A DNA stretch of 35,205 bases, taken from the IMG/VR virus record IMGVR_UViG_3300037502_000326, positions 1-35,205 of that record. The stretch is one strand, 5' to 3'. This document shows positions 716 to 2,058 of the stretch, piece by piece. Under the pieces are notes generated by a model. That model was not told the DNA's origin. It did no database searches and worked only from the letters and a program-made list of their open reading frames with translations. Each line of letters begins with the position of its first letter. Positions within the stretch are counted from its first letter, which is position 1. Made by a program: the position numbers and the translations under genes. Source of the DNA: a virus.

Positions 716-1471
716 TTACCCTACTTTTCTCAAAACAGAGTTGATCTGCGCTTTGATGTGGTCAGGCATTGGAACAGCTTTCTTTCGGTCTTCTGCGATC
801 TTTTGCAAAGCAGGATCAGGATCAGTTGAACCAGGAACAGTCACACGGGCAATGTCGGCAGCTTGTTGGGCAAATGTAGGTTTCTGGAAAGCAAACTGCG
901 TGTTGTTGACCCACGTAGCCTTGAACCCAACCCAATTGCGAAGGATCATTTCCTTAAAAACGTCCTCAATAGGCCAGCCAGCCTTCTCAGCTTCTTTCTT
1001 GAGTTGGTCAATGACAACCTGAGTTACTTGGGCTTTCTTGGCCTTCCTGTGCTTTACAAAGTCGTTCCAGATAGATTCAGATACGCCGTCAGGCGGTGCA
1101 ACGACAGTTGCTTTCTTCTTTGTCTCTTTCTCTGTCTCTGTCTCTGTCTCTGGTGCATCGTGTTGATATCGTTCTGTTATCGCCTCGATATCGTCATGTA
1201 TCAGCCAATGAGATAGCTTACTAAGTATTTGATTTAACTTAGATTCTTCAATTCGTAAACGAAAAGCAAGTTTCCTGATGTCTGGCAATGCTCCAGTATG
1301 CGTATCGTCTTCACTGGCGATTAGCCAAAGCATTGTTAGAACTTTTGCAGAAGTACCATCTAGCTCATGCCAATCTGGATCATCAAGTATGTCTCTGTAT
1401 AGCTTTACCCAAGGAGGTGTTCTATCCTTGAAGTGTTGAAATTTTCCCCAATCTTTTATTCGAATTGTCAT
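716..1471 (-). CDS. Replication-initiator-like protein (phage O / DnaD-like), 251 aa
   Basis: Two-part protein. Residues about 1-105 look like the winged-helix N-terminal domain of phage replisome organisers (DILDDPDWHEL, then an LTMLWLIASE helix). A charged linker at about 106-125 is built from Glu-Thr repeats. Residues about 130-190 (SESIWNDFVKHRKAKKAQVT through NWVGFKATW) resemble the C-terminal region seen in many phage and prophage replication proteins. Such proteins bind the origin and recruit host helicase and loader. It overlaps the HNH gene upstream by 4 bases (ATGA). No phage polymerase or helicase is visible, which supports this initiator role. The origin could lie within or near this gene, but I see no clear iterons. 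Confidence 0.65.
   Translation of the reverse strand: MTIRIKDWGKFQHFKDRTPPWVKLYRDILDDPDWHELDGTSAKVLTMLWLIASEDDTHTGALPDIRKLAFRLRIEESKLNQILSKLSHWLIHDDIEAITERYQHDAPETETETEKETKKKATVVAPPDGVSESIWNDFVKHRKAKKAQVTQVVIDQLKKEAEKAGWPIEDVFKEMILRNWVGFKATWVNNTQFAFQKPTFAQQAADIARVTVPGSTDPDPALQKIAEDRKKAVPMPDHIKAQINSVLRKVG
1129..1152. repeat. Hexamer microsatellite (TCTCTG)x4
   Basis: Four perfect copies of TCTCTG within the replication-initiator-like gene. On the coding strand they encode the Glu-Thr alternation of the linker between the two domains. Copy-number changes would keep the frame and only lengthen or shorten the linker. Confidence 0.9.
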
Positions 1472-1710
1472 TCTTTTGCTCCTCTAGAACAATTACAAGA
1501 ACGACACATCCATCTCAAATTAGATTCTTCATTTGTTCCACCTTTGCTAACTGGAACAATGTGGTCAACAGATCCTGCTTTTGGACGTTTATCAAATGGT
1601 CTGTCATAAAGTGAATTAAAGAATCGTGTCAATTCTCCACATTGACAACATATTCCTTTATCACGTTCATATATCTTTTTCCTCAATGAGGGTGACATAT
1701 ATGATCTCAT
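1468..1710 (-). CDS. HNH endonuclease, 80 aa
   Basis: A compact HNH nuclease. Paired cysteines CCQCG (near residues 21-25) and CRSCNC (near the C-terminus) form the usual structural zinc site, and VDHIVPVSKGG followed by ESNLRWMC gives the His-Asn-type catalytic loop. Start at 1710 is supported by GGAG six bases upstream; the stop overlaps the next start (ATGA at 1468-1471). It is probably a free-standing homing or packaging-type nuclease inserted in the early operon. The bases before its ribosome site form the structured RNA at 1723-1826, whose U-run ends only 12 bases before the start codon. Confidence 0.85.
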   Translation of the reverse strand: MRSYMSPSLRKKIYERDKGICCQCGELTRFFNSLYDRPFDKRPKAGSVDHIVPVSKGGTNEESNLRWMCRSCNCSRGAKE

Positions 1711-1722
1711 TGCGACTCCAAT

Positions 1723-1769
1723 AAAAAACCCCTGAACCCCAGTGGTACGAGCACCGGAGATTCAGGGGT
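1723..1769 (-). terminator. Rho-independent terminator (second hairpin of the structured RNA)
   Basis: Minus-strand stem ACCCCTGAA/TTCAGGGGT followed directly by TTTTTT. It would stop or attenuate transcription before the HNH, replication and methyltransferase genes. Those genes sit immediately downstream with no clear promoter of their own, so read-through or regulated antitermination is likely. Confidence 0.75.
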
Positions 1770-1826
1770 CAGCCTGTGACGGCTTAGATGTGTCTGCGTC
1801 TCGTACACGCAACACCTAAACCGTCA
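1723..1826 (-). ncRNA. Structured RNA with two kissing hairpins and a U-run
   Basis: Read on the minus strand. Hairpin 1 pairs 1826-1812 with 1777-1791 (15 bp), then, after a 3-base bulge, 1811-1807 with 1795-1799, leaving the loop GTACGAG (1806-1800). Hairpin 2 pairs 1769-1761 with 1736-1728, with an inner stem 1757-1752/1744-1739, leaving the loop CTCGTAC (1751-1745). The two 7-nt loops are exact complements, so they can kiss. Pairs 1820/1783, 1815/1788 and 1755/1741 are G-U on the minus strand but A-C on the plus strand, so structure is kept only for minus-strand RNA. Six U residues follow. It lies between the helix-turn-helix gene (stop at 1843) and the HNH gene (start 1710). No known RNA class is recognised. 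Confidence 0.75.
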
Positions 1827-1842
1827 TTGCTTAAATTCTACA

Positions 1843-2058
1843 TCACTTCGGCGGCTTGCCAAAGTAAATTTTGGTTCTGTTGTCAGCCATCAACTTGAAC
1901 GTGATTGTCCAGCCCTTCTCTCGCAGGTCACTCAGTCTGCGGGTTGGGGTGGTTGACGGCAGGACTTTGGCGATCTCCACCGTTGTCGTGCCTCGCTTCT
2001 GAAGCAGTAGCTTTTCCAGGCGTTGCAGTTGTGTCTTGGGTTTCGTGCTGAAGAACAT
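1843..2058 (-). CDS. Helix-turn-helix protein (HTH_39-like), 71 aa
   Basis: Begins MFFSTKPKTQLQRLEKLLLQ, then TTTVEIAKVLPSTTPTRRLSDLREKGW, which matches the pattern of the HTH_39 family of small phage helix-turn-helix proteins (a Q-L-x-R-L start, an xxxAxxxL recognition region and the LRxxGW signature). I chose ATG 2058 because GGAAAG lies just upstream; a TTG at 2073 would add five residues. The gene ends just before the structured RNA at 1826. It probably binds DNA; the target is unknown. Confidence 0.7.
   Translation of the reverse strand: MFFSTKPKTQLQRLEKLLLQKRGTTTVEIAKVLPSTTPTRRLSDLREKGWTITFKLMADNRTKIYFGKPPK

Follow-up and report, generated by a model that had tools for sequence, protein, structure and literature searches.

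Can two hairpins of one short viral RNA, the second of them a transcription terminator, be joined through their loops, and what would such a contact do for the genes that follow? The question is raised by a minus-strand locus in the window, a stretch of viral DNA of 35,205 nucleotides (IMG/VR record IMGVR_UViG_3300037502_000326). The original prediction held that loop GTACGAG and loop CTCGTAC are exact reverse complements and that each fills its whole hairpin loop, and both the sequence and the predicted fold confirm this. By comparative sequence analysis, we examined the layout of the element, the conservation of the loop match, the distribution and gene context of related elements, and the mechanisms that the layout may serve.

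Layout of the element in the window

The element exhibits a compact arrangement of promoter, structured RNA, intrinsic terminator and start codon, with neither room nor signal for a second promoter (Table 1). From the position of the putative promoter, the RNA is predicted to start at approximately 1828, at the foot of hairpin P1. In P1, a lower stem of 14 bp, which includes a U-G wobble, is separated from an upper stem of 5 bp by a bulge of 3 nt on the 3′ side. Hairpin P3 comprises a 10-bp lower stem, a 1-nt bulge and a 6-bp upper stem, and two weak additional pairs are possible at its foot. P3 is a GC-rich hairpin followed immediately by a U tract, as is characteristic of an intrinsic terminator, and the ATG of the HNH gene lies 12 nt beyond this tract. 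The element folds with a predicted minimum free energy of −59.3 kcal/mol, which corresponds to z = −7.2 relative to dinucleotide-shuffled sequences. Immediately upstream of the element lies a gene for 76 amino acids (1843–2073), whose end (..KPPK stop) overlaps with the promoter region; L235 and L240 show a similar end.

Table 1. Features of the element and the adjoining genes in the window
Feature	Position	Strand	Description	Basis
Putative sigma70-like promoter	1835..1862	−	−35 box TTGGCA (1862–1857), 16-nt spacer, −10 box TAGAAT (1840–1835)	Read from sequence; family-wide −10/−7 enrichment upstream
Hairpin P1	1778..1825	−		Fold; covariation in alignment A2 (helices 1 and 2, 99.5% and 100% paired)
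Loop 1	1800..1806	−	GUACGAG, 7 nt	Sequence, fold; kissing pairing is helix 3 in A2
Linker	1769..1777	−	ACAGGCUGA, conserved	Alignment A2
Terminator hairpin P3	1729..1768	−		Fold; covariation (helix 4, 97.2% paired)
Loop 2	1745..1751	−	CUCGUAC, 7 nt, exact complement of loop 1	Sequence, A2
U6 tract, intrinsic terminator	1723..1728	−		Read from sequence
Shine-Dalgarno-like GGAG	1716..1719	−	Directly 3′ of the U tract	Read from sequence
HNH endonuclease gene	1468..1710	−	80 aa, nearest gene downstream of the element	Pfam HNH, 1.4e-9
Phage replication gene	716..1471	−	251 aa, 4-nt overlap with the HNH stop	Gene call; L240 comparison

Two further pairings in the leader were considered. In the window type, AGCC of the 3′ strand of P1 is able to pair with GGCU of the linker, and this pairing may form an alternative hairpin, a candidate switch; the length of its spacer varies among L046, L126 and L157, and it shows no covariation of its own. 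An antiterminator hairpin CAGG/CCUG, suggested by folds of the growing transcript, was rejected, as it is not conserved in L126 and L157. Since the kissing contact and the terminator hairpin are compatible with each other, the sequence provides no classical antiterminator switch.

Resemblances of the 7-nt loops to other RNAs were also dismissed. The 23S rRNA also contains GUACGAG, in its sarcin-ricin loop; this likeness was taken as a coincidence, the loops of other elements not being rRNA-like. Mimicry of a tRNA through an anticodon-like 7-nt loop was rejected because the equivalents of U33 and A37 are not conserved, and a tRNA search of the window found none.

Complementarity and covariation of the loops

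Whether the loop match exceeds chance was assessed with a detector that accepts any complementary pair of loops capping two hairpins before a T-run, applied to 4.26 Mb of fetched viral DNA. For 7-nt loops, 87 distinct elements were detected, as compared with none in controls with rotated or reversed loops. The other lengths gave 9 elements against 8 and 17 in the controls (5 nt), 5 against 0 and 1 (6 nt), 2 against 1 and 0 (8 nt), and a single element, near the control level, for 9 nt. The loop match is beyond chance. As the 4.26 Mb had largely been chosen through the loop pattern, loci found without reference to the loops provide the stronger test. Three such sets were available: 15 loci retrieved through the linker AAGCCGTCNCAGGCTGACCCCTG alone, seven loci retrieved through the stems of another subtype with the loops left free (six real and one chance hit), and MW202710, found by BLAST. 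All real loci in these sets retain complementarity at seven of seven positions with differing sequences; their loop 1 types are GTACGAG, GGACAAG, GGTCGAG, GGACTAG, GTACCAG, GGTTCAG, GGTCCAG, GGACCAG and GGACGAG. Compensated pairs include GGACAAG/CTTGTCC, GGTCGAG/CTCGACC, GGACTAG/CTAGTCC, GTACCAG/CTGGTAC, GGTTCAG/CTGAACC and GGTCCAG/CTGGACC.

The same pattern is observed in alignment A2, which contains 16 close relatives of the window type, most of them selected independently of the loops. The proposed structure is paired in 98.8% of its cells, as compared with 33–43% when it is slid along the alignment. The loop-loop helix is 100% paired in all 16 sequences, with two-sided changes at four of its seven pairs and one-sided changes at none; this pairing was reproduced in 0 of 500 shuffles and collapsed in the slid controls. 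The covarying loop pairs anticipated by the original prediction are accordingly present, and the loss of complementarity without compensating change in homologs, which would have counted against it, was sought and not found. The complementarity is upheld by compensatory change, as expected of kissing loops, and these comparisons indicate that the loop-loop pairing is under selection.

The strand of the selected molecule is indicated by the non-Watson-Crick pairs. It had been argued that these are G-U pairs on the minus strand only, and the argument holds across the family, with 63 GU/UG cells against 3 AC/CA cells; the selected molecule is thus the minus-strand RNA. The T-run is retained in all 15 loci retrieved by the linker alone. 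The covarying loops, the promoter motif adjoining upstream and the conserved T-run together support the reading of the locus as an RNA that ends in a terminator. Loop 2 begins with YUNR in 9 of the 13 distinct loop types, including the window element (CUCG); a passage of PMC4485353, citing Franch 1999, describes this U-turn motif as a general enhancer of the rate of loop-loop binding.

Distribution, subtypes and gene context

In IMG/VR, the pattern GTACGAGN{25,55}CTCGTACN{8,30}TTTTTT matched 111 stretches, most of which have both stems flush with the loops, while several others are variants with mismatched closing pairs. The looser pattern GTACGAGN{20,45}CTCGTAC gave mostly chance matches, and only loci with stems and a T-run were retained from it. 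Loop GTACGAG accounts for 60 distinct elements and GGACAAG for 16 further ones; since the arbitrary loop GTGGAAG matched at least 120 stretches, none of which qualified as a new element under the strict threshold, the former two represent favored loops, although loop abundances are biased because many loci were reached through one loop sequence, and viral contigs are often fragments. Among 84,980 prokaryote genomes, the tight GTACGAG pattern matched two stretches, of which one, in a metagenome-assembled genome of an uncultured Bacteroidetes, is plausible. The element is phage-borne and rare in prokaryote chromosomes. When 21 elements were concatenated and compared by BLAST with 50,697 phage records, no match was found; the sole match to the element of the window itself was MW202710. 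The stretches around the replication genes of isolate phages of Xanthomonas, Pseudomonas and Limnohabitans contained no element. One of the records, PQ492659.1 (L521, Limnohabitans phage DC33), is a 39-kb genome with 52 genes filed under Inoviridae, a label that looks like a taxonomy error.

The architecture is shared by Bacteroidetes-like, proteobacterial-like and low-GC phages, the host types being judged from the promoter type only. The subtypes have wholly different sequences and a common architecture, in which a promoter motif is followed by P1 with its 7-nt loop, sometimes an intermediate hairpin, the terminator with the complementary loop, the T-run and the start codon. When the window type was turned into a covariance model, in which the loop-loop pairing is unscored, this model recovered elements of the L326 type and L156 with E values of 1e-10 to 1e-8. 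A −10 or −7 motif lies just upstream of 62 of the 66 elements, as compared with 28% of control windows, and the Bacteroidetes motif TAnnTTTG lies upstream of 27 of the 66, as compared with 1.9% of controls. Between loop 2 and the ATG, no promoter enrichment was found across the family. Antisense promoter motifs were likewise not enriched, being found downstream of 5 and inside 4 of the 66 elements against 4–7 of 55–59 controls. The start codon is mostly located 30–37 nt past loop 2 and only about 10–20 nt past the U tract.

The genes that follow include replication initiators that fall into several unrelated families (DUF1376, HTH_36 and Lin1244_N), members of PHROGs for replication initiation, primosomal and DnaD-like proteins, DnaB helicases, and homing endonucleases of the HNH, GIY-YIG or NUMOD types; the first and second genes downstream of it are mostly members of the PHROG replication initiation, primosomal and HNH families. 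What is conserved, judged from these annotations, is a position at the head of an operon for replication or homing endonucleases. In two further loci (L141:6925–7871 and L155:7926–8539), the element precedes a NUMOD/HNH-like gene that is followed by the terminase large subunit gene. The position of the terminator 12 bases before the HNH start stands as originally described, but the HNH gene is not its constant partner: L240, which lacks this gene, carries the same upstream sequence and the element directly before a homolog of the replication gene (53% protein identity). The HNH gene of the window is therefore probably an insertion, as far as this comparison indicates. Homologs of the HNH gene were found in three loci, and the two that were read (L122 and L123) lack the element. 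The kissing element was also found in none of 80 homologs of the replication gene from other phages, so the element is not bound to the replication gene of the window.

Some of those homologs have leaders of other kinds. In 33 of the 80 (L244–L323), a different conserved leader of approximately 115 nt is located upstream of the replication gene (for example L244:2832–3000, and L252, L255, L261 and L265). It contains a TTGGCGG/CCGCCAA stem, across which runs an extended terminator helix, GGGTTACAC..GTGTAGCCC, and then T8, with a varying 6-bp pair (CGCAAT/ATTGCG, CACAGT/ACTGTG or CTCAGT/ACTGAG); from its sequence, the leader resembles a pseudoknotted terminator placed immediately ahead of the ATG. 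Rfam gave no match at the leaders of L244, L252 and L265. Directly upstream of the replication gene in L256 (2904–2979), a weak match to the int-alpA RNA was obtained (RF02996, 31.5 bits, E 0.012; gathering score 35.8), and the leaders of L288, L289 and L308 resemble that of L256.

Most complete or near-complete contigs carry one element, usually ahead of replication or homing-endonuclease genes as described above. G022 carries four (loops GTACGAG, ATGACGG, GGACGAG and GGTCCAG), G023 three (GTACGAG, GTGGAAG and GGACCAG), and G020, L183 and G041 two each. In the multi-copy phages found, a loop pair is never repeated within a phage (rough shuffle P = 0.014, from a pool partly chosen through one loop). 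This avoidance is a lead rather than a result, as descent of the subtypes could explain it. G022 (L523–L526) and G023 (L527–L529) are large phages with Bacteroidetes-type promoters and with three or four free-standing homing-endonuclease genes, each of which has its own promoter, its own kissing leader and a distinct loop pair.

Candidate mechanisms and related RNAs

The reading that we favor, with a confidence slightly above even, is that the element acts in cis, as a leader RNA by which transcription is attenuated. The leader probably decides whether the replication or homing-endonuclease genes are read. The promoter would fire into a leader of approximately 100 nt, in which P1 would fold first and display its 7-nt loop. 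P3 would emerge next, and its loop, often pre-arranged by a U-turn (YUNR), would pair with the loop of P1. The resulting helix would alter the speed or the stability of terminator formation, so that the fraction of polymerases reading through into the downstream genes would be fixed or would be set by a phage or host factor. Two directions are conceivable: kissing may speed and stabilize termination, or, by holding loop 2, it may postpone the closing of the terminator. Kissing in cis, its influence on termination, the sign of that influence and the signal behind it are all inferred. The element is unusual in that the upstream loop has the loop of the terminator itself as its partner. For the contact to form within one molecule, two hairpins of nearly 20 bp and a 9-nt linker must bend, which speaks against cis kissing; the 3-nt bulge of P1 and the bulge of P3 could serve as hinges.

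Kissing in trans needs no bending at the bulges. A terminated RNA of approximately 100 nt might be the product: its loops would pair with those of leaders still being transcribed in the same phage and thereby determine their termination, so that expression of the replication or endonuclease genes would fall as genome copies rise. Differences in the loops would separate copies and phages from each other, as happens with the copy-control RNAs of plasmids. The standalone layout of promoter, RNA and terminator would suit such a self-limiting riboregulator, as would the diversity of the loops among otherwise conserved relatives and the U-turn motif, which is typical of trans kissing loops. The unrepeated loop pairs of G022, G023, G020, L183 and G041 point the same way, since pure cis action would not require a different pair for each copy. 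However, the cis partner is always closer, the same loop recurs across phages, so that loop differences may merely follow subtype, and antisense promoters are not enriched; we regard action in trans as unlikely. A broader proposal, in which the element represents a new class of phage riboregulators where kissing of the terminator loop sets replication and homing-endonuclease transcription, also in trans, through loop pairs that are mutually orthogonal within and between phages, is rather doubtful. Quite unlikely, in our estimation, is a put- or nut-like antitermination site, at which the kissing RNA would be bound by RNA polymerase or a phage protein and would render the polymerase resistant to terminators along the whole replication operon. 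The element does precede replication genes, and its position just after a promoter and its two adjacent bulged hairpins match HK022 putL as described in part of PMC9378689. That description gives put approximately 70 nt and reports neither a terminator as its second stem nor loop-loop pairing; moreover, the subtypes diverge strongly in sequence, whereas bases should be conserved in an RNA that binds polymerase.

The remaining readings dispense with attenuation. The structure sits at the extreme 5′ end and at a fixed short distance from the start codon, as would befit a role in mRNA protection or in placing the start codon, with an incidental T-run; the GC-rich lower stem and the T-run nevertheless persist in the relatives found by the linker alone, which is the pattern of an intrinsic terminator and makes this reading very unlikely. 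Proximity to replication and homing-endonuclease genes would also suit a DNA-level origin, cruciform or homing target, but the G-U excess implies pairing kept on one strand only, and the promoter orientation and the T-run suit an RNA; a DNA element is scarcely credible.

The original prediction knew of no phage RNA family with this layout, and Rfam 15 agrees: no match was obtained in the whole window at the gathering threshold, in 13 element-bearing loci at E<=0.5, or in L588 and L162 at E<=0.1. In open-access full text on kissing loops and terminators, phage leaders and homing-endonuclease leaders, the element is undescribed. We filed it as a new RNA family acting like a transcription attenuator, set apart from put by description. 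In the ColE1 RNAI/RNAII pair, 7-nt loops kiss over their full length; unlike the present element, these are two molecules that control a replication primer, with no terminator hairpin in the pair. Purine-type riboswitches have kissing loops between two leader hairpins next to a terminator. Their loops, however, belong to the aptamer, whereas in the present element the terminator contributes one of the loops and no pocket for a ligand can be discerned; a ligand-binding core conserved across subtypes was not found, the architecture being common and the sequence not. Closest in function are the antisense-controlled plasmid attenuators and the HK022 put RNA. The attenuators of pT181 and pIP501 likewise place a terminator leader before a replication initiator gene and use U-turn loop-loop pairing, but their partner is a counter-transcript, while here it is a loop of the same RNA. 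A plasmid-type counter-transcript was rejected because antisense promoters are not enriched. In the portion of PMC9378689 on which the comparison draws, put is also a phage early-leader RNA with two adjacent hairpins near a promoter; it binds RNA polymerase to suppress termination, and neither complementary loops nor a terminator stem are reported. The present element has two stem-loops just downstream of a promoter motif, possibly that of an early promoter, and its second stem is a terminator, with put compared by description only. GOLLD and ROOL are also RNAs known from phages and metagenomes that form RNA-only complexes, but they are much larger, form homo-oligomers and are not terminator leaders (PMC12286853).

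The timing of phage replication is usually explained by proteins, and here an RNA leader occupies that point in many unrelated phages. The element is small enough to be tested in a single reporter construct. If the terminator loop is indeed controlled by kissing, the family would represent a natural means of tuning termination without a ligand, a ribosome or an antisense RNA, and its naturally orthogonal loop pairs would be useful as parts for RNA circuits.
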